A stretch of 29,207 bases of DNA from a virus, in the IMG/VR virus record IMGVR_UViG_3300047495_000018, positions 1-29,207 of that record; one strand, 5' to 3'. Shown here piece by piece: positions 1-29,207 of the stretch. The position numbers were made by a program, and so were the translations under genes. A model generated the notes under the pieces. It was not told the origin of the DNA. It did no database searches and saw only the letters and a list, made by a program, of their open reading frames with translations. Positions within the stretch are counted from its first letter, which is position 1; every line of letters begins with the position of its first letter.

Positions 1-2
1 CG

Positions 3-530
3 GAAGGCGAGGGGATGTACGCCCGGGTGGCGCCCATGCTCGTGCCGCGTGAATCGCCAATCGCCTGGTCCCATGGGACGCAGAACATGGTGGTGACTAC
101 GGGCCGGTTCGGCGGCGATGTGGTCTTCTCCGGGCATGGCGCGGGCGGAGACGCAACGGCAGTGGCGGTCGTCTCCGATCTGCTCGCGGTGGCGCAGGGT
201 GCCCGCAGCGTTTCGCTTCCGGTGCATGCGAGCGCGGTGACCGGAGACTCGGTCGCTCCGTATTATCTGAGGTTCATCGTCGACGACAAGCCCGGGATCG
301 TCTCGGCAATTGCCGGAGCGTTGTCGAAGGTGGGTGCCAACATCGACTCGCTGTTGCAGCGTCCGGGCTATCCCAAGCACCGGCTGGCCTTTGTGGTGAC
401 TACGGAGCCCTGCCTGACCAGCACGATCGATAGGGCGGTGCTCTCGATGGGGCAACTCGACTGCATGCTGGAACCTCCGTTGAGCCTGCAGATCCTGGTG
501 ATGGACGACAAGGACGAGCCGACGGCTTAG
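3..530 (+). CDS. hom: Homoserine dehydrogenase, C-terminal part (5' end outside window)
   Basis: This is the end of a host enzyme that reduces aspartate semialdehyde to homoserine on the way to threonine and methionine. The frame is already open at the first bases, so the start lies upstream. The visible part holds the end of the catalytic domain (motifs like RVAPMLVP, HGTQNMVVTT and SGHGAGGDATA, followed by a helix ending SDLLAVAQG). An ACT domain follows (YYLRFIVDDKPGIVSAIAG, then ANIDSLLQ), which normally binds threonine for feedback control. It is chromosomal and lies just outside the phage boundary. The family call is from motif recognition. Confidence 0.93.
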   Translation, partial: EGEGMYARVAPMLVPRESPIAWSHGTQNMVVTTGRFGGDVVFSGHGAGGDATAVAVVSDLLAVAQGARSVSLPVHASAVTGDSVAPYYLRFIVDDKPGIVSAIAGALSKVGANIDSLLQRPGYPKHRLAFVVTTEPCLTSTIDRAVLSMGQLDCMLEPPLSLQILVMDDKDEPTA

Positions 531-594
531 GCTAGCTCTGGCAAGTGGGAGTCCGGAAGCTGCAACTCGTCTGCATGCGACGCGTCTGGGATCG

Positions 595-623
595 AGCTGC
601 CCTTGCAACACGCGAGGGCAGCT
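595..623. terminator. Hairpin terminator between hom and the tRNA fragment
   Basis: A perfect 9-bp stem (AGCTGCCCT at 595-603, AGGGCAGCT at 615-623) with an 11-nt loop is followed by TTACTTGT. It lies 65 bp after the hom stop and before the tRNA 3' end. It could end hom transcription on the plus strand or the tRNA transcript on the minus strand. The T-rich tail is weak in both directions. Confidence 0.55.
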
Positions 624-16274: not shown

Positions 16275-16949
16275 CTAGCGGTACCCCACAATTTGGACCC
16301 GCTCCAGAGAGAGGAGAGCGTCGACGCCCATCGGGATCGCCTTGAGGCTCTGCGCAGAGGTGGAGGAACGGTTCTCATACCAATTTCCGATCAGGAGCAA
16401 CATCGCCATCACGATCGTTTGTGGGCACGTATTCACAGTCGCGCCATCGCCGTAGCTCCCGGCGACGTAGGTGATGCGGACTGATCCCGGCTGGTAGGCG
16501 GCGATGATCGGCCAGAAGGTTCCCTGCGTGGGAACGATGCGGGCGGGGACGGAGGTCGTGTCGACGGTGTAGGCCGATGCGGGAAGAGTCTGGGACGTAC
16601 CGGAGTTGTCGAGGTAGGTGATCGAGGTGACGCTCACCGTGCGAGGCGTCGGGAGCTCGATGGTCACCTGATCCCAGTACCATGTCCCGTAAGGCCAGGT
16701 GTGGCGTTGGGAGGGAGTGCGAGTGGCGTTGCAGTCGCCGTAGAGCGGGAAGAAGTCGAGGGTGCGCAACCAGGTTTGATTGAAGAACGCGCGTCCCGTG
16801 TACTTCTCGGCGTACTGTCGAGCAGCCGTGATGTACGCGGTGATGAGTGCGTCATCGTCGGTGAAGTCGACACGGCAATGCAGCTTCGCCTGGGCGAGCG
16901 TGACCGGCTCGACGGTAGGCGGCGTGATGAGTTGGGTGTTTAGCTGCAT
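16275..16949 (-). CDS. Head-tail connector protein (gp6-like)
   Basis: The 224-residue protein is long for HK97 gp6 but fits the phiE125 gp8-type family. It begins LNTQLITPPTVEPVTLAQAK, then LHCRVDFTDDDALITAYITA and ARQYAEKYTGRAFFNQTWLR, and ends with an amphipathic helix (TIVMAMLLLIGNWYENRSST). The first half forms the helical ring under the portal. It is the first gene after the hairpin that follows the major capsid gene. Confidence 0.88.
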   Translation of the reverse strand: MQLNTQLITPPTVEPVTLAQAKLHCRVDFTDDDALITAYITAARQYAEKYTGRAFFNQTWLRTLDFFPLYGDCNATRTPSQRHTWPYGTWYWDQVTIELPTPRTVSVTSITYLDNSGTSQTLPASAYTVDTTSVPARIVPTQGTFWPIIAAYQPGSVRITYVAGSYGDGATVNTCPQTIVMAMLLLIGNWYENRSSTSAQSLKAIPMGVDALLSLERVQIVGYR

Positions 16950-16975
16950 CGGCGAGGTTCGTCCAGGGGTGGAAG

Positions 16976-17006
16976 AAAAAGGGGCATGGAAGTTCCATGC
17001 CCCTTT
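16976..17006 (-). terminator. Intrinsic terminator right after the major capsid gene
   Basis: On the minus strand AAAGGGGCATGG, loop AACTT, CCATGCCCCTTT is a perfect 12-bp stem followed by TTCTTCC, 26 bp after the capsid stop. It sits inside the structural operon. Partial read-through would let capsid mRNA exceed tail mRNA. Confidence 0.8.
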
Positions 17007-17031
17007 CGGGGTTTATGTGTAACCTTGTGGG

Positions 17032-18210
17032 TTACTTGATCGTGATTCCGATCACCGGGGGAATGCCCGCGTTGGTAGCGACACCGCCGACACGGCAAAA
17101 CCCGATAAATCCCGTTTCAAAACCAGCTGCCAGAAGCTCATTGAGGCGGAGGATGCCGATTCCAGGCTTCTGCTGACGGAAGGTGTAGCCCTCCTTGAAG
17201 TCGCCGAACAAAACGGGGACGTTACCGGTCGCGACGATCGGGAGCTGCGTGACCAACTTGACCGGACGGCCCAGGATGGTTCCGACGAACCCGCTCGCTG
17301 CCGCGCCGTAGTCGGGCAGGAACAGAGGACGACCATTGGTGTCGACCAGGGAGATGACGTAGGCGAGCGTCGCGTTGGACATGGCCCAGACAGCGTTGGT
17401 CTGGTAGGCCGGATCGAGGGTACCGATCGCGGTGGCGAAGTCGCCGTAGCCGAGCTTGTTGGTCACGGCAGAGATGAAGCCAGCGGAGTACGCGGAGGTC
17501 AGAGAAGCGACCGAAGCCGCATCACCGGCAAGGATCAGGCTGGACGCGCCACGGTAGAAGCGCTTGAGGAACTTGTCGCGGATGAAAGCGTCCAGGTCGA
17601 AGCCCGCATCGCTCAGGAGGCCGTTGTCGACCTTGATGATCCCGGTGGTGAAGTTGTCGACCTGAAGCGTCGCGCCGGTGATGACCGGATCGACCTCGCC
17701 AGCGGAGGTTCCTACGGTGACCGGAACCAGTCCGTTCGCCGTGTCGTTGTCGTAAACCAGCTTGATTGGGTTGCCGTGATCCGTTTCCATCAGCGTCACG
17801 AGGTCATAAATCTGGCCGTAGCTCTTTTTGGCCTCAATCACCTGCGGATTGAACAGGGTCGGGATGGCCACGCCTGCGTTGACGGAGGTCAGGTCGCGGG
17901 TTTCCTTCTGGCCGGTCGCGAGATAGGTGCGGAACGAAGCCTTGGTGCGGGCATTGCGAACCTCTGCACGCTCTTCGGGGTCGTTGCTCTCACCGGGGTT
18001 GGGGCGGGGCTGGTTGACCGGCTCACGCATGGCGGCGCGGTGCTCTTCAACTGCCTTGACGCGGACGATGTCGCCGTCGATGGTGGCCACGTCGGCCAGC
18101 ATCTTGTCGAACTGGCTCCGCTGCTCGGCGGTCACTTCAGTGCCCGCCACGAGGGCCGTCGCGTCGGCCATGATCTTGTTACGATTTTCCTGCAAAGTGT
18201 TCAGAAGCAT
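17032..18210 (-). CDS. Major capsid protein (HK97 fold)
   Basis: The 392-residue protein has an N-terminal coiled, highly charged scaffold domain (about 1-95, RSQFDKMLADVATIDGDIVR), then the mature part beginning near 100-115 (VNAGVAIPTLFNPQVIEAKK). The E-loop and A-domain regions follow, with FLPDYGAAASGFVGTILGRP and VLFGDFKEGYTFRQQKPGIG at the end. No separate scaffold gene is present, in keeping with the delta-domain type cut by the adjacent protease. A 140-bp gap separates it from the protease and it has AAGGA before ATG. Confidence 0.93.
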   Translation of the reverse strand: MLLNTLQENRNKIMADATALVAGTEVTAEQRSQFDKMLADVATIDGDIVRVKAVEEHRAAMREPVNQPRPNPGESNDPEERAEVRNARTKASFRTYLATGQKETRDLTSVNAGVAIPTLFNPQVIEAKKSYGQIYDLVTLMETDHGNPIKLVYDNDTANGLVPVTVGTSAGEVDPVITGATLQVDNFTTGIIKVDNGLLSDAGFDLDAFIRDKFLKRFYRGASSLILAGDAASVASLTSAYSAGFISAVTNKLGYGDFATAIGTLDPAYQTNAVWAMSNATLAYVISLVDTNGRPLFLPDYGAAASGFVGTILGRPVKLVTQLPIVATGNVPVLFGDFKEGYTFRQQKPGIGILRLNELLAAGFETGFIGFCRVGGVATNAGIPPVIGITIK

Positions 18211-18350
18211 GGGTGTTTCCTTTTCGGTGGGTTGGTGCAGGACCGGAGGTCGCGGCGGGCGATCCGTCTCAGCTCAGGAGGCACACGACTGCGAACGAAC
18301 GCGAGCCATATGGGCGGCGTCGTCTGCCTGCTGCAAAGTTGTGGGGTGGT

Positions 18351-19082
18351 CTACCGAGTGGCGAGAAGCGCGAGCTGCATCTTCATGCGCCGGACTTCAG
18401 AGTCGGTCACCGGCTTCGAGCGTCGCTGCGCATTCGAGCATGGCTCGATGGCCGAACAGATTCCGCACGCGCCAGCGAGGCACTGGGAGCAGTCGCAATC
18501 GCATCCGTCGTCGAGGTCATCGTCGGTGGCCTCAAGGTCACGCTTGGCGATCTTGGACCTGATCTCCTTCGGTGCCGTGGGCGGTAGACTCCGCGCCTGC
18601 GTAGTCGTGCCGGAGTACGCGGGATAGGTGACCGGGCTCACGTCCAGCAACTCGTCGAACTCAAGAATGCGCCGGGTGACGGTGCCATCCGAGTTCTCCG
18701 TCCACTGGTCGCGCTTGCAGATGAAGCCGAAGGATGACTGCGTCACATCCTTGCGCCGCATCGAGATGATGAGGTCCTTCGCAAGCTGCGTGTCCGGTGG
18801 GTCGATGATGTAAGCGAGGCCACGCCCGTCGATGTTCAGATGGAGCGTCTTCGCTGTCGTGCGACCGAGGATGCAATCGGCGTTGTGGTTCCAGAGGGCG
18901 CGGCAGTCGAGCTGCGAGTTGATGAGCGCATCGAAGGCGTGCGGGTCGATCGTCTCAGTCCATCCGCCGAGATCGTCGCTAGGGGTATCGAACAGTGCGG
19001 CGTATCCGGAGATGGTGGGCTGCTCGCCCTCGGCTGACACGCGGAACTCGTGCGTGATGTTGCGGCGTTCGACCTTATGCAT
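18351..19082 (-). CDS. Prohead protease (HK97 family) with Cys-rich tail
   Basis: The 243-residue protease cleaves the capsid scaffold domain during maturation. Motifs are GYAALFDTPSDDLGGWTETI with F-AL near residue 50, WNHN (His66), QSSFGF (Ser116/117) and LLDVSPVTYPAYS, which carries the third residue as Asp147 where the family usually has Glu. After about residue 175 the protein has an unusual cysteine cluster (Cys184, 186, 188, 191, 196, 199 and 205, pattern CxCxCxxC-CxxC-C), plausible for metal binding. Its ATG overlaps the portal end by eight bases. Confidence 0.9.
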   Translation of the reverse strand: MHKVERRNITHEFRVSAEGEQPTISGYAALFDTPSDDLGGWTETIDPHAFDALINSQLDCRALWNHNADCILGRTTAKTLHLNIDGRGLAYIIDPPDTQLAKDLIISMRRKDVTQSSFGFICKRDQWTENSDGTVTRRILEFDELLDVSPVTYPAYSGTTTQARSLPPTAPKEIRSKIAKRDLEATDDDLDDGCDCDCSQCLAGACGICSAIEPCSNAQRRSKPVTDSEVRRMKMQLALLATR

Positions 19083-20706
19083 CTAGTTTCCTTTTCGCTA
19101 CGGCGGCGGAGGCGTCGCGGTAGATGGCGTAATGGAGCGAGCGGACGGCCCGTGTCAGTTCGGAACCGGCTGCCTGGTCCTTACCCTCAACCGTCCATTC
19201 GGCGGAGCGTGTGGCGGCTCCCTTGAGGTAATCGGCGGCGGGCTTGGTGGGTGTCCAATCGTCGGGGAGCTTGAACTCGGATCGTGCCTCGGTCGTGATG
19301 ATCGAGGTCATCGAGTCGAGTAGCGGAGAGAGGATAGGACCGACCGCCTCGTCACGCTTGCTTCGCGCGGTGATGCGACCGATGCCGTCGGCGAACAGAC
19401 CGCTGAAGGCCGGGACATAGTTGGCCAGGAGCGACCGCTGCTGTTCCGTTGGCGGTGTTGGCGGATCAAGCAGGGGGAGCGGCGCTGGGTCAGGTGCCTT
19501 GGGGATCAGGTTGGCCGCGTTGGTCATATTCACGGGTGCCCACAGCACATCTCCTTCAGGCCCGATGGGGTTCTCACCCAACTTTTCGAGGATGGTGTTC
19601 GTCGAGTAAAACCCCCACTGCTTACCGACGGCGAAGCCATCCATCGTGCTCTTGAAGTCACCTCTGAGCCTCTCTGAAACATCAAACTCGGCGAAGATAG
19701 AACCGTCGTCCGGAAGTAGCTTGCGGGCGATCTCTTTCTCGATCCGCACCAGGTAGGGACGAAGCGTGTCGGTCACGAGCTGGAGAGACTGCTGCTCATG
19801 GTTCGCGTTCGACAGGCGGGCAGTGTCGCCCAGCATGGATGGTGGTAGCCGATAGAGCGCGGCGATGTCCGTGCGGCTGAGCTGACGAGTTTGAAGCCAC
19901 TGACTCTCTTCAGGGGAGAGCCCGAGGGCGGTGTACTTCCAATCTTGAGGAAGGACACCCACACGGCCCTGGTTCTCACCGGAGTTGGCTCGTTCCCAGA
20001 ACTCACGGAAGTTGTTCAGCTCAGTCGGATCAACCTGACCAACGGGTGTGAGCAGACCACCTGGGCGGGAGCCGTTGCCATGGAAGCGGGCGGCGCTCTT
20101 CTCGGCGGCGCGTGCCAGGCCGATGGCATCCTTCGCCTGTTGAATCGGCGAGAGCCCCTTGAGGCCATCCCAGCTAAACAGCGGGAAATGGAGCATGTCG
20201 GCAGAGGCAATGATGCGCGTCTGGCCGTTCGTGACACCCACGGCGGTCTTGAACGCGAGCTTGCCGGTGGGAAGACGTACCGGCTCAGTCATGCGCGGGT
20301 GAAGCGGGTACAAGCCGACCGGCGACCCTTCTTTGTTGCGGAGGATCTCGACGTAGCTGTTGCCCGTGAGCGCCATGCATCCGGCGACCGATTCCCACAT
20401 CACGGGTGCGCTCATCTCATCGTTGGGTGAGATCGAGAGCATCCGGTGGATGGGGTTGTCGACCGCTTCCTTACGTCCGCGTGGCAGCCGCTGATAGGTG
20501 CGCAGCGTCATCGACCCGACGCTCTCCGCGATGATGCGGGTAGCGGCGTACACGGAGACGTGTTGCAGGGCGATCGTCTCGTTGATCGGTTCTCCGCTGG
20601 GCGTGCCATGCGTGTTGCTGAGAACGTCCCAGGCCGCCGCGAATAGACCAGTGGCGTTCGGCTGGTTGGAGCGGCGCTCGCGGCGAAAGATGGAGAATAG
20701 GTTCAA
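19075..20706 (-). CDS. Portal protein (HK97 family)
   Basis: The 543-residue protein forms the dodecameric DNA gate in the capsid vertex. Family features are ATRIIAESVGSMTLRTYQRL, VAGCMALTGNSYVEILRN, ADMLHFPLFSWDGLKGLSPI, LSRTDIAALYRLPPSMLGDT and LRPYLVRIEKEIARKLL. It starts with TTG at 20706 (minus strand); the nearest ATG is 66 codons downstream. There is no Shine-Dalgarno sequence. The TerL stop lies three codons upstream in the same frame (TAG CGA CCA ACT TTG), so reinitiation or rare readthrough is likely to matter. The C-terminal part (after about 400) is low in recognisable motifs. Confidence 0.93.
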   Translation of the reverse strand: MNLFSIFRRERRSNQPNATGLFAAAWDVLSNTHGTPSGEPINETIALQHVSVYAATRIIAESVGSMTLRTYQRLPRGRKEAVDNPIHRMLSISPNDEMSAPVMWESVAGCMALTGNSYVEILRNKEGSPVGLYPLHPRMTEPVRLPTGKLAFKTAVGVTNGQTRIIASADMLHFPLFSWDGLKGLSPIQQAKDAIGLARAAEKSAARFHGNGSRPGGLLTPVGQVDPTELNNFREFWERANSGENQGRVGVLPQDWKYTALGLSPEESQWLQTRQLSRTDIAALYRLPPSMLGDTARLSNANHEQQSLQLVTDTLRPYLVRIEKEIARKLLPDDGSIFAEFDVSERLRGDFKSTMDGFAVGKQWGFYSTNTILEKLGENPIGPEGDVLWAPVNMTNAANLIPKAPDPAPLPLLDPPTPPTEQQRSLLANYVPAFSGLFADGIGRITARSKRDEAVGPILSPLLDSMTSIITTEARSEFKLPDDWTPTKPAADYLKGAATRSAEWTVEGKDQAAGSELTRAVRSLHYAIYRDASAAVAKRKLDA

Positions 20707-20715
20707 AGTTGGTCG

Positions 20716-22383
20716 CTATATGAAGAAGGGCTTGAAGGTTGGGGCCGGTGCCGGGCGCATCAGCGAGGCTTGCTGCATGGCGAACAGGAGAGCCATTCCC
20801 GCGTCGATCTTGGCTTCGGGTCGGTCGTGTGAAGGGACCGCGAAGTTTCCCTGGGGATACTTCCGGGTCTTCATGTTCGCCAGGCAGAAGGCGAGGACTT
20901 TGTTGCCGTCGTGGTGGATTCGTCGACCGCTGATCGCGGCCTCAAGCTCAAGCATGGGTGGCGTGAGCGGCAGAGACTTCTGAGGGATCTCGGCGCGGGC
21001 GATGTTATGCGCGACTTCAAGCGTCTGGGTGATGTCCCGGGCGAAAGTGGGGTCGTAGCAGAGCGTCTGGAACTTGCATGTCGGGACGGCGGCGATGATG
21101 TCCGCACGTAAGACTGCGAGGTCTAGTTCCGAACCTTCGGTCGCGGTGATGAGTCCCTGCGATGACCAGAGCTGGAGTTGTGCGTTGGCCGGGTTGGCCA
21201 GGGCCTGCTCCGGTAAGTAGCAATGGGCGAAGGCGTAGTAGTGAGGCTTGTCTCCGCGTGAGTCATCGCGGTAGACCCGGACGACGGCGGTGAGGTCGTG
21301 GATCAGCGCAACGTCCAGGCCGAACCAGCAAGGCAGGTGTCTCACCTTGTCCTCGGTCAGGTCGGGGTCGAAGCAGGCCTGCCACTCGGATGGGTCGAGC
21401 CATGCGGAGGAGGCAGTCATCCACTGGTTCAAGTGCATCGCCCGAACGTTGTTCTGTTCGGCGGGGGACCGGGCCGCGTTCTGGATGGCCAGACGTAGCT
21501 TGACGGCGTCGTTGCTTATCCCGAGGTTGGGGTTCGCCATCCGAAGGGCTGCGTCTGAGTTCCACTCGACTGATTCGTCGGCACAGTAGATCGCGGCGAA
21601 CAGCCGGTCGTCCGGCATCGTGCCTTGCAGGGCAGATTGTGCGCGGTCCTGGAGCAGATAGCACGGGTTGTCCTGCGATGCGACACCGGCGGTGGAGATG
21701 ACGAGCAGGAGGCTGTTGAGCGTCTTGTTACAGCCCGTCTTGAACGTTCCGTATAGGTCGGCGTTGATGGCCTGGTGCAACTCGTCGAGGATGGCCAGGT
21801 AAGGGCGGGCTCCGTGGCGGCCTCGACCGATGACGGGCTGAAAGCGTGATCCGGAGGCGGAGAAGATGCTTGTCTTCTGTGCCGTGATCCCCATACGCTC
21901 GAAAGCGGGCTGGTTGTCCACGTAGTTGCGAGCCGGGGTGAAGACCTCATGTGCCTGCGTCTTGCTGAGTGCTCCGCAGTAAACCTCTGCATGACGACGC
22001 CCGTCGAAGAATGCGAACCAGAGGCCGAGGGCGGAGGCGAGTGGGCTCTTGCCGTTGCCCTTGGGAACCAGGATCAGGGCCTCGATGTGCTTGCGGAGGC
22101 CTTCGGAGTTCACCCATCCGATCAGGGATGCTACGAGCCATACCTGCCAGTCGGAGAGCTTGAAGGGGTTGCCGTTCGAGAGGGTCAAGGACTCGATAAA
22201 TGAGCAGCACCGCTCAACACGAGGGGCATCGTAGTACCACTCCCACGCATCGGTGACCGGCTTGTCGAGATCGTCGAGGTGGCGTTGGGCGGCGAGGATG
22301 ATCCACTTGCTCGCAAGCTCTTGGCGGTCGACTACGCGACGACAGTAGGCGTGTGCGCGATCACTGTACGTGGTCCGGGTCAT
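20716..22383 (-). CDS. Terminase large subunit
   Basis: The 555-residue packaging motor has an N-terminal ATPase with the P-loop VPKGNGKS (106-113) and the acidic pair of the Walker B box in LAILDELHQ (Asp200, Glu201). The C-terminal nuclease has acidic residues in FGLDVALIHDLT (Asp357, Asp363) and in CYDPTFARD. It matches the HK97-like large terminase family in length. It overlaps the small subunit end by 23 bp and is followed by the portal in the same frame. Confidence 0.95.
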   Translation of the reverse strand: MTRTTYSDRAHAYCRRVVDRQELASKWIILAAQRHLDDLDKPVTDAWEWYYDAPRVERCCSFIESLTLSNGNPFKLSDWQVWLVASLIGWVNSEGLRKHIEALILVPKGNGKSPLASALGLWFAFFDGRRHAEVYCGALSKTQAHEVFTPARNYVDNQPAFERMGITAQKTSIFSASGSRFQPVIGRGRHGARPYLAILDELHQAINADLYGTFKTGCNKTLNSLLLVISTAGVASQDNPCYLLQDRAQSALQGTMPDDRLFAAIYCADESVEWNSDAALRMANPNLGISNDAVKLRLAIQNAARSPAEQNNVRAMHLNQWMTASSAWLDPSEWQACFDPDLTEDKVRHLPCWFGLDVALIHDLTAVVRVYRDDSRGDKPHYYAFAHCYLPEQALANPANAQLQLWSSQGLITATEGSELDLAVLRADIIAAVPTCKFQTLCYDPTFARDITQTLEVAHNIARAEIPQKSLPLTPPMLELEAAISGRRIHHDGNKVLAFCLANMKTRKYPQGNFAVPSHDRPEAKIDAGMALLFAMQQASLMRPAPAPTFKPFFI

Positions 22384-22792
22384 ACGTCATCGCGCTCATG
22401 TATTCCGCCAGCGGGTCTGTTGGCTTAGGCTCCGCCGGTGGCGAGATGTGCAGGCGGGTGCGTGCCTGGGGGTCAAGGCCGAGACGGCTGAGCATCCCCA
22501 TCAGCAGCGATATTCGGGAACTCTGCATTGTGTGCCCGTTGGTCCGGAACTGATGAAGGAGGCGCGATGCGATCTCGACCGAGATGCGGTCCGACTCACC
22601 GGCGACACCGGCGGGGATAGTCGAGACCAGTTCCTTCCAGATCTTTTTCTCGGCGGCGCTGAGTGACTTCGGAGGAGGGCCGATCACGCCGGTCGTGGGT
22701 GGCGCGTCCTTGCGGTCTGCGAACCGTCCCGCGTTCACCTGTTCGGAGCCTCGTGCCTGGGCCTGGTCGAAACTGAGTCGGGGTTTGGGCAT
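22361..22792 (-). CDS. Terminase small subunit (P27 family)
   Basis: The 143-residue protein begins MPKPRLSFDQAQARGSEQVN and continues GPPPKSLSAAEKKIWKELVS, a common P27-family opening, followed by helices (ISVEIASRLLHQFRTNGHTM) and SLLMGMLSRLGLDPQARTRL. It recognises the packaging site and delivers DNA to TerL. ATG 22792 was chosen because the family starts there; the open frame upstream is low-quality. It lacks a ribosome site. A -10-like TACAAT lies 17 bases upstream, so the packaging operon may start here. Confidence 0.9.
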   Translation of the reverse strand: MPKPRLSFDQAQARGSEQVNAGRFADRKDAPPTTGVIGPPPKSLSAAEKKIWKELVSTIPAGVAGESDRISVEIASRLLHQFRTNGHTMQSSRISLLMGMLSRLGLDPQARTRLHISPPAEPKPTDPLAEYMSAMTYDPDHVQ

Positions 22793-22809
22793 GTTGACGA
22801 AAATCGGCG

Positions 22810-22815
22810 ATTGTA
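22810..22815 (-). promoter_or_regulatory. Possible -10 box in the 126-bp gap before TerS
   Basis: On the minus strand TACAAT lies 17 bases before the TerS ATG, with TCAAAT 18 bases upstream as a weak -35. The gap is AT-richer than its surroundings and would hold a late promoter if there is one. Confidence 0.3.
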
Positions 22816-22918
22816 GGAATTGCAGATGTGAAAATTTGACCGATGCTGGGTCGGCTTTTCGGTCGACCTCGACAAAGGCGACCCCCCTACCCCCTGGAGG
22901 GGTCATGGTCGATGCTGG

Positions 22919-23275
22919 TCATCCCGCCGCCTGCTTTTCGAGGTGTTCGTGACATTCGCCGCAGACGCTGAGCAGGTTGGAGAGATCGAGGCGAAGGTGA
23001 GGCGCTACCCGGATCGGCATCAGGTGATGCACGTCGCGGGCCGGAGTGACTCGACTGGCTGCTTTACACAACGGGCCTCGGCAGAGGAAGTAGTCGCGCT
23101 TGAGTGCCTGTATCCGGAGCTTCGACCACTCGTGATCGTAGCCTCGACTCGCTGCTGATCCTCGCCACCGGTCGGCCTGTTTGGTGTCGGCGGCGTGGTC
23201 CGTGCAGTAGCGTGTGCCGGTGACCAGGGCAGCGCATCCAGGGCGTCCGCATGGCTTCGGCGGTCGGGTAGGCAT
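22919..23275 (-). CDS. HNH endonuclease
   Basis: The 118-residue protein has an N-terminal zinc knuckle (Cys9, Cys14, Cys24, His27: KPCGRPGCA, TRYCTDH). It has the HNH core: RDYFLCRG and PLC (Cys65, Cys70), DVHH (81-84), DLSNLLSVCGECHE (Asn100, Cys105, Cys108, His109). HNH enzymes next to terminase often aid DNA packaging by cutting concatemers. ATG 23275 follows the methyltransferase stop after five bases and lacks its own ribosome site, so it is coupled. Confidence 0.93.
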   Translation of the reverse strand: MPTRPPKPCGRPGCAALVTGTRYCTDHAADTKQADRWRGSAASRGYDHEWSKLRIQALKRDYFLCRGPLCKAASRVTPARDVHHLMPIRVAPHLRLDLSNLLSVCGECHEHLEKQAAG

Positions 23276-23280
23276 GTCAG

Positions 23281-24126
23281 CTAGGCCGCGTCTTCGGTCG
23301 CCGTCTGTACGGGCACTGTTTGCTTCGCGATGCGCTCGGTGGCAATGCGATGATAGTCGGCGTCGCGCTCGATCATGATGTACTGGCGACCAGTGTTGAT
23401 GGCTGCTACGGCGGTCGATCCGGAGCCTGCACAACAGTCGAGGATGACTGCGTCCGGTTCCGTGTAAGTGCGAATCAGATATTCGATGAGCGCGACGGGC
23501 TTCTGTGTCGGATGCAGTCCGCGATCAGGTTTGAAGTCGAGGACGGTGATCGGGTAGCGCGAACCGTCGATGTTGATGGTGTTGGTGTCACCGAACTTTC
23601 CGTAGTTGGTGGAACGGCGACCACTCTCCCGCTTCACCCTATAGGGCTTGTGCCCGGTGGACATCTGCGGATGGTACAGCGGCGTCCGATCGCAGAAGAC
23701 CAGGATGTTCTCGTGCGACTTGAGCGGATAGCGGTTCGCGTTCAAGAAGCCCGTACCTTGCGGCTTCTGCCAGATCCATTCGCTCTTGAGCTGCCGGAGG
23801 TTGCTCGTCGCGACCGTGGTCGTGAACGGCTGCTGAGTGAACAGGATGATGGGTGCGCCGGGCTTGCAGATGCGCTTCCACGCGGACCAGAGCTGATCTA
23901 ACGGGATGACGCTGTCCCACTTGTTGGCCGTAGTGCCATATGGCAAGTCCGTGATGATCGCATCGACCGAGCCGTCAGGGATGTCATGCATCGCAACCAG
24001 GCAGTCGCCCAATGTGATCGTGTTGGGCGTGATGGTCGGGATGGCGGAGTCTCTGAAGGATCGAGGTGGTGTGGGGTGTGTAGTTGCTACACTGGCCGCA
24101 TGAAGAGCGTCCCCGAAGTTCTGCAC
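23281..24126 (-). CDS. DNA methyltransferase (N6-adenine or N4-cytosine, beta class)
   Basis: The 281-residue enzyme has the catalytic motif IV DLPYGTT (60-66) before the SAM-binding motif I ILDCCAGSGSTAV (228-240), the order of the beta class. Between them lie HENILVFC and HPTQKPVALIEYLI. The family uses the phrase DLPY in place of the more common DPPY. It probably protects phage DNA from host restriction. The start is GTG at 24126; there is no clear ribosome site (GGAT nine bases upstream) and the first 36 residues look unlike the family. The target site cannot be read from sequence. Its 5' end overlaps the plus-strand gene at 24100. Confidence 0.92.
   Translation of the reverse strand: MQNFGDALHAASVATTHPTPPRSFRDSAIPTITPNTITLGDCLVAMHDIPDGSVDAIITDLPYGTTANKWDSVIPLDQLWSAWKRICKPGAPIILFTQQPFTTTVATSNLRQLKSEWIWQKPQGTGFLNANRYPLKSHENILVFCDRTPLYHPQMSTGHKPYRVKRESGRRSTNYGKFGDTNTINIDGSRYPITVLDFKPDRGLHPTQKPVALIEYLIRTYTEPDAVILDCCAGSGSTAVAAINTGRQYIMIERDADYHRIATERIAKQTVPVQTATEDAA
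24078..24092. promoter_or_regulatory. Operator-like palindrome in front of a leaderless gene
   Basis: GTGTAG-TTG-CTACAC is a perfect 6+6 inverted repeat with a three-base centre. It contains TACACT (24088-24093), which ends six bases before ATG 24100 and so fits a -10 box for a leaderless transcript. A repressor bound here would cover the promoter. It also lies inside the first codons of the methyltransferase. Confidence 0.45.
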
Positions 24127-24306
24127 GGCTTGATCCGCGACTTACAACGAACGCACGATCAGCTCGGCAAAGACATCAAGGAGATCCACTCGTCGCCTGG
24201 TGAGAAGCGCGGTATCGGGGCTCTCTTAGCCGCTGAGTTGATGCTGGCGAGACATCTGGAGAGCCTGATGTTCGCCGCGTCGACCACCGGTGACCGTGTG
24301 CAGTAG
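24100..24306 (+). CDS. Small helical protein read against the late operon
   Basis: The 68-residue protein, MKSVPEVLHGLIRDLQRTHD at the start, reads as two amphipathic helices (DQLGKDIKEIH and LLAAELMLARHLESLMFA) joined by SSPGEKRGIG. There is no Shine-Dalgarno; a -10-like TACACT lies six bases upstream, so it may be leaderless. It overlaps the GTG of the divergent methyltransferase by 27 bases and converges on the next minus-strand gene six bases away. Its composition is protein-like, but the evidence for expression is only the promoter-like palindrome. Function unknown; a small DNA-binding or antitoxin-like regulator is one possibility. Confidence 0.5.
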   Translation: MKSVPEVLHGLIRDLQRTHDQLGKDIKEIHSSPGEKRGIGALLAAELMLARHLESLMFAASTTGDRVQ

Positions 24307-24312
24307 ACGACG

Positions 24313-24663
24313 TTACTTGATGTCGGCGTCGAGCTGCGCGACGGCAGCCTTGAGCGTGGGCAGGAAGGCCATGGCATCGGCGACCATCTTCTTGAGGTCG
24401 GCGAGCACTGGGGCAACGGCAGCCAGGTCGGCAGCGATGTTGGTCCCCTCGCTGACGACGATGGGCGACAGCGCAGTCACGATCGGCTGGAAGTCCTGGA
24501 TCAGCGTCGTGAGCTCAGCCCGGAATTCCGGGGTCATGGCCTTGGTATCGCAGAGGACCTTGAACACGTCAGAGCTGACGTGGACAACGTCTCCGAACAC
24601 GAGGGCAGTCTTCTGCTCGACTTCTACGGCGATGCTTTCCAGCTTTGCGAGAGGGTTGGTCAT
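24313..24663 (-). CDS. Small all-helical protein, unknown function
   Basis: The 116-residue protein is almost entirely alpha-helical and alanine/valine-rich (VEVEQKTALVFGDVVHVSSD; AAVAPVLADLKKMVADAM). There is no membrane segment or known motif. AGGAG lies seven bases before ATG. It lies between the sigma factor and the methyltransferase on the same strand, in a probable early or middle operon. I do not recognise it. A chaperone-like or phasin-like scaffold is conceivable from composition only. Confidence 0.75.
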   Translation of the reverse strand: MTNPLAKLESIAVEVEQKTALVFGDVVHVSSDVFKVLCDTKAMTPEFRAELTTLIQDFQPIVTALSPIVVSEGTNIAADLAAVAPVLADLKKMVADAMAFLPTLKAAVAQLDADIK

Positions 24664-24756
24664 GGTGACTCCTGATGGGGTGAGGGGTGACGACGGGAAA
24701 CACGGGGAGTATCTCGACCGTCGCCTGGTGAGGGCCGCTCTACATACTGATCCGCT

Positions 24757-25302
24757 CTAACCCAGATCAATCTGCTCACTCGCCGCAAGATATTTTGCGC
24801 CGACCCGCTTGAGGCGCTGGTTCGCCGCACGAGTTGTGATGTCCAGCGACGCGGCGGCCTTCGGTACATCCCCGAGGGCGATGACACGATCCATCAGGTC
24901 CGCGCTCGGTCCAGCGGTGTCACGGATGTCGAGGAGCAAGGTGCGGTGTGGGTCATCGCGAGGGGCGACTTCCGATGCATCCTGGTCTGCCTGGTCATCG
25001 AAGAACTTCTGCCCGTCACGTTCGGTGCGGGCCTGCTTCCGGTGTGCATCGGCGATGCGATCGAGCGTAATGCGATGCACCCAGGTCCGGAAGCTCGACT
25101 TGCGATAGTTGAACGAGTTCAGCCGCGCCCACACGGCGATCGTGACCTCCTGCGCGATGTCCTCGGCGTCGGTGGGGTTGACGTGCTCGCGGAGGCAGAC
25201 AGTGAGCGCATAATCCGTGATGGACCGGTAGAGGGTGTTGGTGGTCGAAGTCGTGATCTGGTGCGAGTACGCTGCATAGGCCGTGGCGACGTTATAGCGC
25301 AT
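24757..25302 (-). CDS. ECF-like RNA polymerase sigma factor
   Basis: The 181-residue protein has sigma region 2 at about 24-80 (PTDAEDIAQEVTIAVWARLN, then FRTWVHRITLDRIADAHRK), which contacts core polymerase and the -10 box. A region 4 helix-turn-helix lies near 145-165 (DVPKAAASLDITTRAANQRL). The linker is acidic. It lacks a recognisable anti-sigma partner nearby. GGAGG lies six bases before ATG. It is the last of four overlapping small genes and precedes the packaging genes, the place held by late activators (ArpU-like) in other phages. It could direct late transcription; the binding sites are not identified. Confidence 0.85.
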   Translation of the reverse strand: MRYNVATAYAAYSHQITTSTTNTLYRSITDYALTVCLREHVNPTDAEDIAQEVTIAVWARLNSFNYRKSSFRTWVHRITLDRIADAHRKQARTERDGQKFFDDQADQDASEVAPRDDPHRTLLLDIRDTAGPSADLMDRVIALGDVPKAAASLDITTRAANQRLKRVGAKYLAASEQIDLG

Positions 25303-25531
25303 GGGAAACCTCCGCGATGATGAGCTGGACCGCCGTGGTGAACGTCTGGCGGGGTGTGGTGAGGAGTCCTGCGGCGATGCATAGCTCGACCGCCCGGTCG
25401 CGCTGAGCGGGATCTGTGAGCGTCAGGAACGCGGCCATGTGGACGGCGTTGCGCCGGAGGTCATGTTCCCGTTCGGCGAGCTGGTGGAGGCGGTGGTCGA
25501 TGACGGAGAGGTAGGCGTGGGCGGCGCTCAT
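25292..25531 (-). CDS. Small helical protein in the sigma operon
   Basis: The 79-residue protein (LSVIDHRLHQLAEREHDLRR, then TDPAQRDRAVELCIAAGLLT) is mostly helical and charged. Its ATG overlaps the stop of the previous gene (ATGA), and its stop overlaps the sigma ATG by 11 bases, so the three are translated together. The family is unknown to me. A partner of the sigma factor is possible from coupling alone. Confidence 0.65.
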   Translation of the reverse strand: MSAAHAYLSVIDHRLHQLAEREHDLRRNAVHMAAFLTLTDPAQRDRAVELCIAAGLLTTPRQTFTTAVQLIIAEVSHAL

Positions 25532-25737
25532 GGCAGCACCTCCACCACGGTCACCGGGAACCGGAAGGCGTACGAGTCCATAATTGCGCGAGCTTCGAGA
25601 TTGCCGGTGATCGCACGCTCGACCGTGGATGCGCCTGGGTGAAGGGACTCGGGGTTGGGCCGGGCGGGGAACGTGCGGTGCAAGGCGTCTTCGTAGTCGC
25701 GCCAGGTGGGCTTGCGGGGGGACTTCGCCTTAGCCAC
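25528..25737 (-). CDS. Small basic protein in the sigma operon
   Basis: The 69-residue protein starts with GTG and is basic at the N terminus (AKAKSPRKPTWRDYEDALHR), then turns to IMDSYAFRFPVTVVEVLP at the end. The start overlaps the stop of the previous gene by eight bases (GTGGCTAA). No known motif is visible. The WRDYEDAL segment and overlaps suggest a real gene. Confidence 0.6.
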   Translation of the reverse strand: MAKAKSPRKPTWRDYEDALHRTFPARPNPESLHPGASTVERAITGNLEARAIMDSYAFRFPVTVVEVLP

Positions 25738-25933
25738 GGTTCACCGCCTTGGGGTTGCGGCTGGCGATCTCGACGCGGCTCATGTCCTTGTCGGCGAGCT
25801 CGGCGCGGTCGATGAGGCGGTTGGCGCGGCGAAGGGTGTCGCGGTTCAGAGTGGTGGCGAGGCGAAGGTTGTGCTCGGCGGCGGTGGTGGGTGACGGCTC
25901 GGGGGTTACGGGCGGGGTGGTGCGTATGGACAT
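25730..25933 (-). CDS. Small protein opening the sigma operon
   Basis: The 67-residue protein has a Thr/Pro-rich start (MSIRTTPPVTPEPSPTTAA) and a helical remainder (NLRLATTLNRDTLRRANRLI; DMSRVEIASRNPKAV). It starts at ATG 25933, placed exactly at the foot of a perfect stem whose loop holds the ribosome site (AGAGGG). It is the first gene of the minus-strand series. No family recognised. Confidence 0.6.
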   Translation of the reverse strand: MSIRTTPPVTPEPSPTTAAEHNLRLATTLNRDTLRRANRLIDRAELADKDMSRVEIASRNPKAVNRG

Positions 25934-25957
25934 GATCGGTCCCTCTACACACCGATC
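25934..25957 (-). promoter_or_regulatory. Perfect stem with the ribosome site in its loop
   Basis: On the minus strand GATCGGT, loop GTGTAGAGGG, ACCGATC is followed at once by ATG 25933. The 7-bp arms are perfect and the AGAGGG ribosome site sits in the loop. It may be a protein-bound operator in DNA or a translational control hairpin in RNA. Confidence 0.5.
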
Positions 25958-26288
25958 CCGTAGTCCGTTTCCCCAGTTCACTGTGATTCGGTCAGCGGGG
26001 AGCGCGGCCCGAGGTCTACGCCTGGCGGGATGCGACAGGGGGGGGCGTAGGCGGGCCGGTGGCAGCGGGGGTGGGCGATGGGTGCGAAGGGGCGTGCGGA
26101 GGCCATGGGGGGGCGTAATGCGTTGGGGTGGGCTACGGCAGTCAGCAGCCGTGACGGAGACGGCGAAGTCCGGCGTAGTTGCGGATGCGGTGGGGCGGAG
26201 ACGGAGGCCGGGGGTTCAGCCGAGGGTGATCGGAGCGGGAGCCTCAAACCGGAAAAACGTCAATCCAGCCATGCGGTCAACCGGTAGC
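25958..26288. other. G-rich stretch with no convincing gene
   Basis: The plus strand is purine/G-rich with several runs of six or more G. The open frames on either strand code for Pro/Arg/Ala-rich low-complexity sequence without a start signal. The region lies between the sigma operon and the origin repeats. It probably holds the promoter of the minus-strand operon. Confidence 0.5.
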
Positions 26289-26305
26289 GGTGATGAGGGT
26301 GATGA

Positions 26306-26625
26306 GGGGTGATGAGTTGGCGACTCATCGGGGGTAAACGGTTGTAAGTCATTGAGAATAAACGGCTTACAGCTCGACGACTAGGGGTGATGAGTAAAAA
26401 GAGAGAGGAAAACGGTGGGCTGTACGGTAATCGAACACCCTTATAGTTTATATAAAAATATATATATCTCTCTCTATATATAAGCACTAAGTAATTCATT
26501 CTAAAGGGTTTAGGGGTGATGAGTAGGCAAACCATCACCCTCGCCGTCATTCCCTAAGTGGTTCATTCCAAACGGGTTACCGGTCCACCGGCTGATGATG
26601 TACCGACTCATCGACTCATCACCCC
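26306..26625. repeat. Four perfect copies of the iteron GGGGTGATGAGT
   Basis: Copies lie at 26306-26317, 26384-26395 and 26513-26524 on the plus strand and 26614-26625 on the minus strand. Two further GGTGATGAG cores at 26289-26297 and 26298-26306 precede the first. The spacing to the AT-rich tract is 47 bp on the left and 10 bp on the right. The likely ligand is a phage initiator, perhaps the winged-helix protein at 26957. Confidence 0.85.
26441..26502. other. AT-rich tract (candidate unwinding element)
   Basis: The block TTATAGTTTATATAAAAATA continues as a nearly pure AT and CT run to 26484 and stays AT-rich to about 26502. It stands out in a genome of high GC. It lies between the second and third iterons. 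Confidence 0.75.
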
Positions 26626-26812
26626 CTGAAGGTCCACCGGTTAGACGCGTGCCGTCGTCCGTCTTCCGTCCAGTAGGGTGTGCCGTCCTTCCGGTTAGCG
26701 GAGTCTCCCTCCCCCCGAACGCCCCCGTACAACTTCCGTTGCTCAGACCCCCACCAGCGAACCACCCTGTTCCCGGAAAATCGCTAACCCGTTCATTCCA
26801 CGCCGGTTACCG
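26487..26812 (+). repeat. Second repeat family, TTCATTCYA ... GGTTA
   Basis: GTTCATTCCA followed by NNCNGGTTACCG is found at 26561-26582 and 26791-26812, and a divergent copy (ATTCATTCTA with GGGTTTAG) at 26494-26512. The first two of the three also share CTAAGT two bases upstream (26487-26492 and 26554-26559). GGTCCACCGG occurs at 26582-26591 and 26631-26640 among them. These are separate from the iterons. Confidence 0.7.
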
Positions 26813-26860
26813 AAAATCACAGTGAAACGGACAACCCGACTACGGTTTCGCTCCTGTGTA

Positions 26861-26904
26861 GCCCGATATTTTCCCAGAAAAGTTTCCAGGGAATATCTCG
26901 GGCG
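26861..26904. promoter_or_regulatory. Imperfect dyad upstream of the winged-helix gene
   Basis: GCCCGATATTTTCCC (26861-26875) is mirrored by GGGAATATCTCGGGC (26889-26903) with small offsets. The AT core sits about 55 bases before ATG 26957. It is a plausible operator, perhaps for the protein encoded just downstream. Confidence 0.4.
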
Positions 26905-26956
26905 CACCCTCATGCGGGTATCACCCCACATGAAGCAAAATCAGGAGCCCCGGAAG

Positions 26957-27214
26957 ATGCGTCACAAGCCAGACCTCACCCCCACTGCCCGCCTCTGCCT
27001 GCTCGTCGCAGAGCGCGAAAACAAGCCACTCACCTACCCCGAACTCGAACTGCTCACCGGCTGCGGACGTGCCGCGCTGGAGATCGGCGTACCCTCGCTC
27101 ATCGAGAAGGGACGCCTCGTCCGCATCCAGCGCAACGGTATCTCGGCCTTCATCCTCCCCGCCAACCCCGCCACCGTAGAGGCCAGTCAGCAGACCACCA
27201 ACGGTGCAGCATGA
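26957..27214 (+). CDS. Winged-helix DNA-binding protein (possible initiator)
   Basis: The 85-residue protein has helices at about 8-20 (TPTARLCLLVAERE), 25-34 (LTYPELELLTG) and 37-50 (RAALEIGVPSLIEKG, likely recognition helix), then a beta hairpin wing (GRLVRIQRNGISAFILP). This is a winged-helix pattern. AGGAG lies nine bases before ATG 26957. Upstream in-frame starts exist (GTG 26822, ATG 26912, ATG 26930), but they lack ribosome sites, and the first lies before the dyad. The gene sits beside the origin and overlaps the ATPase gene (ATGA), so it may bind the iterons or regulate the replication operon. Confidence 0.75.
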   Translation: MRHKPDLTPTARLCLLVAERENKPLTYPELELLTGCGRAALEIGVPSLIEKGRLVRIQRNGISAFILPANPATVEASQQTTNGAA

Positions 27215-28668
27215 GCACGTCCCCGATCCACCACGCCCGCCGCACCGCCCCCGCTGCCGCCTTCGCCACTTCCAAGGTCATCGAGATGCCCGCTCCGGCT
27301 CCTGAACCGGCTCCGCCTGCGGTCGAACCGGTCCTCAACCTTCCGGCTCAGCAGCCCGTCGCAGTCGACAACCATCGCCCCTCCCTCGAGGATCTCGACG
27401 CCTGGGACACGTACGACCCGCTCCCAGCCAAACACGTCAACTATGTCCCTGTGCAGACGGTCAAGAGCCACCCGCTCGACATCCCCGCAGATGCGCTCTA
27501 CGGCCCGCTTGCCGACATCGCGGCGGACACTTATGCGCCGATGAGCTGGGCTTACCCAGCGGCGCTGACCGTCTTTGCGGGCAAGGGCGTGAACGTCCAC
27601 GATCCGGCCCCTGCCACCACGCCAACTCTCATGACCATTCTTCTGGGCACGAAGGGTGATGGTAAGACGACCACCTGCACCCGTGTGGCGGCTGGCCTGG
27701 GCGTGACCGGTACCGATCACTTTCTCCCCGCTACCCCCGTCTCCGACCGGGGATGGTTCTCGCTCGCAGGCGAAAAGTTCAAGAAGGGTGAGGAATGCGT
27801 CCCCCCGCTCGTATACTTCACCGCCTATATGGACGAGTTCAAGTCGTTCTTGCTCAAGGCCCGCATCGAGGGCTCGACGCTCGCTCCAACCACGTGCCAG
27901 ATGTTCGGCCAGCGTCTCTCGATCCTCCCTGACAAGTCAGGGAAATGGGTGATGAACGCGCAGGTCTCGATCCTCGGGAACCTCCCGGTCATCGAGCCTT
28001 CCGAGTTCTCCGAGCTGTTTGGGCACGCGACCGGCCACGGCCTGTACGACCGCATGATTATCTGTCCCGGTCCGCAGGGGTGGAAGTGGGACTTCGAGTT
28101 TCGCGCCAACGCCGTCGACCTCAAGCCTTGGCCGACTGAGATCGATAAGGCTGGTCACGCCTTCCTCCGCGCGTACACGGAGCGTCGGGAGGCTGCCGGT
28201 AATCCGATCAAGCGCGTGAAGGAGGTCGCTATGCGCGTCGCTCTCATCAGCGCCTCGGCGGCGAAGGAGAGCATCGTATCGATCCCGTGCCTGGAGGCGG
28301 CCATCAAGTTCGGAGAGTGGCAGGAGCGCGTCCGCCGTGTGTACCGGATCGGTGAGGCCGAAACGCAAGAGGGTGTTGTCACCGGGGCCATCCTGGATGC
28401 ATTCAAGTTCGTCGAGGATGAGTACGAGGCGGGCCGCAACGTTTATTACGGACCGCCGAAGAATGAGCTGCCGATCGTCAAGGAGGGCGGCTGGGTGAGC
28501 TGGCGTCTCCTCGCGCAGAAGAAGGGATGGGCGACCCGCTGGGGATCAGCCGTTGTGACGCGCGTCCGCTCCGCCCTGGTACAGTCCGGCGACCTGGAGA
28601 TCGGCTGGGATGCAGGCAAGGAAGTATCCAACCACAAGTTCCGTTTGGGGGCGCAATACCATGTGTAA
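27211..28668 (+). CDS. P-loop replication ATPase (DUF3987-like helicase)
   Basis: The 485-residue protein has a Pro/Ala-rich start (1-55), then a helical part and the ATPase core: Walker A GTKGDGKTT (146-154) and a Walker B-like YMDEF with Asp208 and Glu209. A sensor-like STLAPTTCQMFGQRLSILPD and NLPVIEPSEFSELFGHATGH follow. The C-terminal part has the helical tail of DUF3987 proteins (WLLAQ-like WRLLAQKKGWATRWGS). These proteins act as replicative helicases next to a primase-polymerase. It is coupled to its neighbours on both sides (4-bp and 8-bp overlaps). Confidence 0.85.
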   Translation: MSTSPIHHARRTAPAAAFATSKVIEMPAPAPEPAPPAVEPVLNLPAQQPVAVDNHRPSLEDLDAWDTYDPLPAKHVNYVPVQTVKSHPLDIPADALYGPLADIAADTYAPMSWAYPAALTVFAGKGVNVHDPAPATTPTLMTILLGTKGDGKTTTCTRVAAGLGVTGTDHFLPATPVSDRGWFSLAGEKFKKGEECVPPLVYFTAYMDEFKSFLLKARIEGSTLAPTTCQMFGQRLSILPDKSGKWVMNAQVSILGNLPVIEPSEFSELFGHATGHGLYDRMIICPGPQGWKWDFEFRANAVDLKPWPTEIDKAGHAFLRAYTERREAAGNPIKRVKEVAMRVALISASAAKESIVSIPCLEAAIKFGEWQERVRRVYRIGEAETQEGVVTGAILDAFKFVEDEYEAGRNVYYGPPKNELPIVKEGGWVSWRLLAQKKGWATRWGSAVVTRVRSALVQSGDLEIGWDAGKEVSNHKFRLGAQYHV

Positions 28669-29083: not shown

Positions 29084-29207
29084 TTTTGGCATTATGAATT
29101 GGCCCACTCTGGCGGTTTAAGTTGGCCCACCCTGGGCAGAGCGGACTCTACCCTGTTTCTCACGCGAGTTGAGGAACGGAGGGCGAGTTGGACTGGAGAG
29201 CCAAGGT
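29081..29207 (+). mobile_element. Left end of an IS21-like insertion sequence (continues beyond window)
   Basis: The sequence after the broken prim-pol frame has two close repeats, TTGGCCCACTCTGG (29099-29112) and TTGGCCCACCCTGG (29122-29135), 23 bp apart. Multiple terminal repeats of this kind are found in IS21-group elements. The exact end (about TGATTTTGGC at 29081) is inferred. A TTG start with GGAGGG upstream follows. Confidence 0.65.
29188..29207 (+). CDS. istA: Start of IS21-family transposase (partial)
   Basis: TTG at 29188, preceded by GGAGGG (29178-29183), would begin a protein (V/M)DWRAKV, which matches my recollection of the opening of IS21-type transposases. Only seven codons are inside the window. 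Treat as a likely but unproven start. Confidence 0.4.

Follow-up and report, generated by a model that had tools for sequence, protein, structure and literature searches.

Among the sigma factors encoded by phages, gp47 of phage 7-11 is ECF-like, possesses a region 4, drives late genes from promoters of the form GTAAtg-(16)-aCTA and is proposed to regulate its own gene by feedback, and gp36 of phiEco32, which is not homologous to region 4 and relies on a single-element promoter, serves both middle and late promoters and works with a co-regulator (gp79), according to the passages on these two phages cited here from PMC8948821. In Streptococcus thermophilus phages the ArpU/Ltr genes, which have a role in late transcription, precede the gene for the terminase small subunit, TerS (PMC5601072, cited in part). 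The SigN (ZpdN) factor of the Bacillus plasmid pBS32 activates its own promoter, and its promoters largely avoid the prophage region of that plasmid (PMC6751061, cited in part); sporulation-like phage sigma factors reprogram host genes in Bacillus (from parts of PMC9429907). A phage sigma factor of the ECF type is, as such, an already known kind of protein; the part of the locus described here that appears new is a cassette of temperate Acidobacteriota phages in which the sigma gene is paired with a small gene that we call b.

The window, by which we mean the whole stretch of DNA analysed, comes from a virus record and is 29,207 bases long. Its left end is the 3′ part of a homoserine dehydrogenase gene, and this flank has DNA identity of up to 77% with genomes of one Acidobacteriota order, with matches in 223 of the 394 genomes searched. 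HK97-type portal, protease and capsid genes, recognized with NCBIfam, stand after the gene for the terminase large subunit (TerL). Because of this flank and these head genes, the likeliest reading of the sequence is that the window is an HK97-type prophage of that order; no integrase was identified in its ORF listings, and the right end of the record (29085-29207) looks to us like the end of an insertion sequence. The leftward genes that concern us are as follows, from upstream to downstream.

25730-25933, minus strand: gene a, first of the leftward operon, 67 aa if ATG 25933 is used, a start that is our choice (the listed ORF begins at GTG 25981)
25528-25737, minus strand: gene b, a 69-aa ORF that starts with GTG; conserved companion of sigma, recognized by linkage to it, with no family match
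25292-25531, minus strand: gene c, 79 aa, between b and sigma and overlapping both
24757-25302, minus strand: ECF-type sigma factor, 181 aa, with region 2 (about residues 1-96), a linker and region 4 (about 120-177); called from Pfam, NCBIfam, PHROG, a family profile against the PDB, and a model with fold comparison
24313-24663, minus strand: 116-aa ORF (d) downstream of sigma, with no assigned family
23281-24126, minus strand: DNA methylase (N6_N4_Mtase; Pfam E 1.8e-28), start codon uncertain
22919-23434, minus strand: HNH endonuclease (Pfam E 6.4e-5; PHROG 144 E 4.1e-30), start codon uncertain
22361-22906, minus strand: terminase small subunit, TerS (PHROG 83 E 3.1e-10)
20716-22383, minus strand: terminase large subunit, TerL, called from its position (synteny) and from the TerL-like relatives that it finds, with no NCBIfam match

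Reading leftward, the gene order is thus a, b, c, sigma, the 116-aa ORF, DNA methylase, HNH, TerS, TerL, portal, protease and capsid. The original prediction had described a coupled cluster of small genes placed directly ahead of the methyltransferase, HNH and terminase genes, and this arrangement is borne out: b and c overlap end to start by 4 nt, and c overlaps the start of sigma by 11 nt. Gene c is without a Pfam or PHROG match and without a counterpart among the relatives compared, and the 116-aa ORF has no Pfam or PHROG family above cut-off. The label of 'replication' given to the region at 27211-28668 has weak support, its best PHROG match being a helicase with an E-value of 0.037. We also note a small ORF on the plus strand (24100-24306), which faces the interval separating the 116-aa ORF from the methylase, has a TACACT box immediately ahead of its ATG and may be a real antisense gene, and two near-perfect, GC-rich, terminator-like hairpins at 2292-2327 and 16978-17006, the second of them in the gap after the capsid gene.

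The sigma ORF occupies exactly positions 24757-25302 of the minus strand and is intact, with 181 codons and an ATG start (ORF listing). Both sigma regions that had been attributed to it are found, by different routes. Region 2 is matched by Pfam Sigma70_r2 with 49.2 bits, where the cut-off is 24 (E 4.7e-13), the protein passes the curated superfamily cut-off of NCBIfam TIGR02937 (sigma70-ECF; 48.1 bits against 42.9), and PHROG 1740, 'RNA polymerase sigma factor', covers residues 18-176 (E 1.2e-13). Region 4 is divergent and lies below Pfam detection in the window protein, for which Sigma70_r2 is the sole Pfam match at E-values up to 5, the ArpU family being without a match. A profile made from an alignment of 17 sigma homologues and compared with the PDB nonetheless reaches into region 4 of R. 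sphaeroides SigE (2q1z, the best of the full ECF factors, at profile positions 35-155 with E 2.4e-17). Two domains are seen in the AlphaFold2 model (mean pLDDT 87.4, pTM 0.56, with values below 50 only at residues 119-125): residues 3-96 fit region 2, the -10-binding domain, of E. coli sigmaE (4lup, Z 9.8 over 91 residues), and the domain at residues 120-177 matches the -35-binding domain of SigD (3vfz, Z 7.8, rmsd 2.0, 58 residues). Because Z-scores of about 8 are common for helical models, the assignment of region 4 needs profile and fold together.

Region 2 is above the Pfam cut-off in nine of the ten homologues scanned, and region 4 (Sigma70_r4_2) is seen in six of these ten, below cut-off in every case; in a second set of six, three have region 2 above the cut-off and the remaining three score 22-24 against 24. 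Values of dN/dS are 0.24, 0.29 and 0.22 in three pairs of homologues, indicative of purifying selection, and in a fourth pair, for which dS is saturated, pN/pS is 0.41; the conservation of the slot and of the linkage to b (below), together with these ratios, excludes a chance origin of the ORF. A search of phage records for the sigma protein returned seven records, with matches to region 2 only and none spanning 80%, and none of the viral models matched it at an E-value of 0.001, the leading named ones being phage RpoE/ECF factors. On sequence and modelled structure, it is confirmed that positions 24757-25302 of the minus strand encode a real two-domain phage sigma factor of the ECF type.

The conservation of sigma in its slot was assessed from TerL relatives, drawn from viral contigs and genome contigs with sigma disregarded. 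Of 108 sequences assembled, 94 (including the window) have a TerL ORF, and 43 of these 94 have at least 4,500 nt upstream of TerL. A sigma-family ORF lies upstream of TerL, on the same strand and 1.2-4.3 kb away, in 21 of these 43 loci, a count which includes near-duplicate loci (such as L061, L062 and L063) and for which the sigma profile was refined on part of the matches. The gene is absent from the other 22, among them the fairly close TerL relatives L024/L086, L048 and L050. The sigma module is common, not universal, and because of the loci that have no sigma gene, late transcription in this lineage does not always depend on it. In prophage regions retrieved around matches, seven of eleven (L112, L113, L126-L129 and L132) have TerL downstream, in the order b-sigma-HNH-TerL, in two (L125 and L130) HNH is present and a TerL match is absent, and in two (L111 and L131) both are missing. 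In one relative without sigma (L047) a LuxR/GerE-type HTH protein (6770-7063, plus strand; 24.7 bits against 23.5) is encoded just before HNH, as if another regulator occupied the sigma slot. A search of viral contigs for closer relatives of the L113 sigma factor yielded seven stretches that fitted a pattern, none of which was confirmed.

Upstream of sigma there is a recurrent small ORF, b, which carries the motif SLRP...G...A.AI...W.F and goes unremarked in the original prediction. There are 45 distinct sigma ORFs, of which 33 are linked to TerL or to b (the 12 linked to neither are not counted), and the removal of four with less than 400 nt upstream leaves 29, of which 12 were found through b itself. 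In 28 of these 29 distinct cases b lies upstream of sigma, on the same strand and within 0.6 kb of the sigma frame; the exception is L057, in which b is about 4 kb away and on the other strand. Among the sigma ORFs found through TerL, the window included, b is present in 16 of 17, and since five of these 16 contributed to the b profile the untrained figure is 11 of 12. When b by itself was searched against 397 genomes of the order, 14 matches were obtained in 13 genomes, and a sigma-family ORF stands beside b on the same strand in 12 of the 14 (in L120 as a piece of 109 codons only). The two matches without sigma, L122 and L123, are both among the three weakest. In 396 genomes of the Acidobacteriota phylum there were three b matches, all with sigma and all contained in the 14.

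None of 13 members of the b family matches PHROGs, NCBIfam or Pfam at an E-value of 0.01. The predicted structure of b is small and helical, with moderate confidence (AlphaFold2 pLDDT 78.7, pTM 0.46), and comparison of this model with the PDB by Foldseek gave nothing meaningful (best E 7.3). No title listed in the non-subscription literature searched describes a b-sigma cassette. It is most likely that b is a controller of sigma that either restrains or assists it, and by analogy it could be an anti-sigma factor or a co-factor. Anti-sigma genes usually lie downstream of sigma genes and often encode membrane proteins. In L046 a weak b match (E 0.0047) and a cut-off sigma ORF (1-606, minus strand) are both encoded on the other strand from TerL, as though b and sigma had moved as a unit.

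The window contains a pair of sequence elements, one at the head of each of its two divergent operons:

25953-25988, minus strand: element L, AATCACAGTGAA-N11-GACTACGG, 36 nt; it heads the operon of sigma and the late genes and is a candidate for a promoter or an operator
26815-26850, plus strand: element R, AATCACAGTGAA-N11-GACTACGG, candidate of the same kind at the head of the rightward operon

L and R are identical at 28 of 36 positions, a level reached by none of 1,967 random pairs, and both contain AATCACAGTGAA and GACTACGG unchanged and equally spaced; the window has two occurrences of the core pattern, where 0.04 would be expected. From one block start to the next there are 23 nt, a distance like that in -35/-10 promoters, both elements are inside ORFs that begin with GTG in the same frame, and TCACAGTGA is palindromic around a central A. 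The elements may be promoters, operators or similar coding starts. Of the sequences found, AATCACAGTGAA-N11-GACTACGG at both operon heads is the best candidate for a sigma target, although a weak one that we treat as a lead; were it the target, positive feedback would be implied. An apparent third copy of L after the sigma stop codon (24733-24753; 17 of 21 identical) is at chance level (blast E 0.88) and was rejected. Other features of this region are an imperfect palindrome of 43 nt (26861-26903, 34 of 43) just after R and ahead of the rightward operon, which could be a hairpin or operator, and, in the divergent intergenic region at 26285-26625, five copies of (G)GGTGATGAG with others in inverted form (ACTCATCACCCC) and, around 26440-26500, an AT-rich island, which look like iterons or operators and perhaps a replication origin.

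The prophage L113, whose sigma has 30% identity, has an inverted pair of its own with one copy ahead of its b-sigma operon. The L113 pair, L and R align without gaps, and the alignment has 16 columns that are identical in all four, a number reached by 15 of 20,000 column shuffles in a comparison that was post hoc, L113 having been picked after inspection of repeats in 16 sequences and in L111-L113. The starts of small, similar ORFs overlap the L113 copies, which may therefore be duplicated stretches of coding sequence. No comparable inverted pair was seen by eye in eight further loci, and the element motif was not seen by eye in the repeats of L060, L015 and L132. The window consensus, used by itself, does not pick out the L113 sites, whose score of 18 of 28 is exceeded by six other sites with 19-20. 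In a position-weight scan, which is circular for the four sites because it was trained on them, these score 22.6-24.0 and the best other site 17.2, with no comparable site in other relatives; exact-pattern scans of viral contigs for the L/R pattern found none.

The original prediction proposed as its check a search for an unusual -35/-10 pair shared by TerS and the other late starts, and none was found. A dyad search over seven gaps (sigma-d, d-methylase, HNH-TerS, protease-capsid, after capsid, and both operon heads) had 50 as its best score where the null mean was 51.5, and at least 50 was scored by 59 of the 60 random sets, the null being random stretches of the window that are mostly coding. 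Sigma-70-like promoters numbered none in 16500-27300, where 1.8 were expected. Footprinting of L073 against L084 downstream of sigma revealed a palindrome, GGTCTCAAAAGGTTTTGAGACC (L084 9138-9159, with one change at the matching place in L073), which has a G-rich flank and is strongly conserved between HNH and TerS; we take this to be a possible cos site rather than a promoter.

Proteins with sigma regions 2 and 4 are expected to bind core polymerase and to recognize a two-part promoter. We propose that sigma and the small protein b would be produced jointly, from genes at the start of the leftward operon, that region 2 of sigma would bind the host core RNA polymerase, that it would direct the polymerase to phage promoters, and that the packaging and morphogenesis genes downstream would then be transcribed after induction or infection, with b controlling sigma by holding it off or helping it act. 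The directly supported components are the sequence and fold of sigma, the conservation of its slot, the purifying selection on it and its linkage to b; we count against a late switch the null result of the late-gap motif search, the 22 of 43 loci without sigma, the L046 cassette opposite TerL, and the divergent region 4. We consider moderately probable the model as a whole, namely that an ECF sigma factor of a temperate HK97-type Acidobacteriota phage, made with b, switches on the packaging and morphogenesis genes. Sigma probably helps to switch on the late genes of the virus, late-gene control being its likeliest role because it sits in the ArpU/Ltr late-regulator slot ahead of the packaging genes. 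The earlier interpretation is plausible and supported in part: a phage sigma factor lies ahead of HNH, TerS and TerL, much as ArpU/Ltr precede TerS in the S. thermophilus phages of PMC5601072 (cited in part), and many relatives have sigma in that slot; control of late transcription by it is a proposal, and no shared promoter pair was found at the late gaps. A late switch has precedent, since the ECF-type factors of 7-11 and phiEco32 drive late genes (in the parts of PMC8948821 cited).

An alternative that we regard as rather unlikely gives sigma a wider role, as a master lytic switch that drives both divergent operons, its own included, from L and R, with b as an anti-sigma factor that silences it in the lysogen. 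L and R are the only shared bipartite element found and stand at both operon heads, L113 also has an inverted pair with one copy ahead of its b-sigma operon, b and sigma are tightly linked, and self-activation is known for SigN of pBS32 (PMC6751061) and proposed for 7-11 gp47 (PMC8948821), both reports being cited in part; however, L and R could be operators, given the palindromic TCACAGTGA, or similar coding starts, given the GTG ORFs in the same frame, and the link to L113 is post hoc. A further formulation, tentative and somewhat short of an even chance in our estimation, is that b and sigma form a two-gene module of temperate Acidobacteriota phages, in which b would be a dedicated, undescribed partner (an anti-sigma factor or holoenzyme co-factor) and which would work as a lytic or late switch, in some phages through an AAwCAs-N17-GACTAC promoter at both operon heads.

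The remaining explanations deny that sigma switches phage promoters as a sigma factor. The protein might be a disguised activator of the region 4 type, one that no longer replaces the host sigma factor and instead binds DNA to activate the terminase promoter in the manner of ArpU/Ltr, as the shared slot (PMC5601072, cited in part) would allow and as L061, with region 2 below its Pfam cut-off and region 4 nearly at its own, would illustrate; yet region 2 is above the cut-off in the window protein and in nine of ten and three of six homologues (the rest of the six score 22-24, the cut-off being 24), and its modelled fold resembles the -10-binding domain of sigmaE, such that we judge this improbable. 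Slightly more improbable still is a host-directed factor, one that reprograms host genes in the manner of the sporulation-like Bacillus phage factors (PMC9429907, cited in part), with phage transcription independent of it. Half of the TerL-selected loci lack the gene, which accords with such an accessory function, but both its place ahead of the packaging genes and its tie to b are kept across divergent phages, and an accessory host-directed gene would need neither.

Acidobacteriota are a common soil phylum that is hard to culture, and to our knowledge transcription control in their phages has hardly been studied. A sigma factor in the slot of a late regulator, accompanied by an orphan small protein, offers a model, open to testing, of how such a phage passes from lysogeny to late gene expression. 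If b acts on sigma it would represent a kind of sigma partner not seen before, and the two proteins and their promoter could then be used for orthogonal gene expression.

Comparison with the known systems places the preferred reading, that of a late-gene sigma factor made with b, among several partial likenesses. One is gp47 of 7-11, also an ECF-type phage factor with a region 4 that is encoded near late genes, and the ACTA in elements L and R recalls the late promoter of 7-11; the gp47 gene, however, is deep in the late cluster of a lytic Salmonella phage, whereas sigma stands ahead of HNH, TerS and TerL in a phage that looks temperate, and the parts of PMC8948821 cited report no gp79-like regulator for 7-11, whereas sigma is tied to b. 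The gp36 factor of phiEco32 is without region 4 (same parts of PMC8948821), while the window protein has the region 4 fold. ArpU/Ltr genes are alike in standing just before the packaging genes (PMC5601072, cited in part), but sigma has no Pfam ArpU match and possesses region 2 as well. SigN of pBS32 is similar in being a sigma factor on a prophage-bearing mobile element (PMC6751061, cited in part). Bacterial ECF/anti-sigma pairs share with the cassette regions 2 and 4, a short linker and an adjacent small gene, and differ from it in that b is upstream of sigma and matches no described family.
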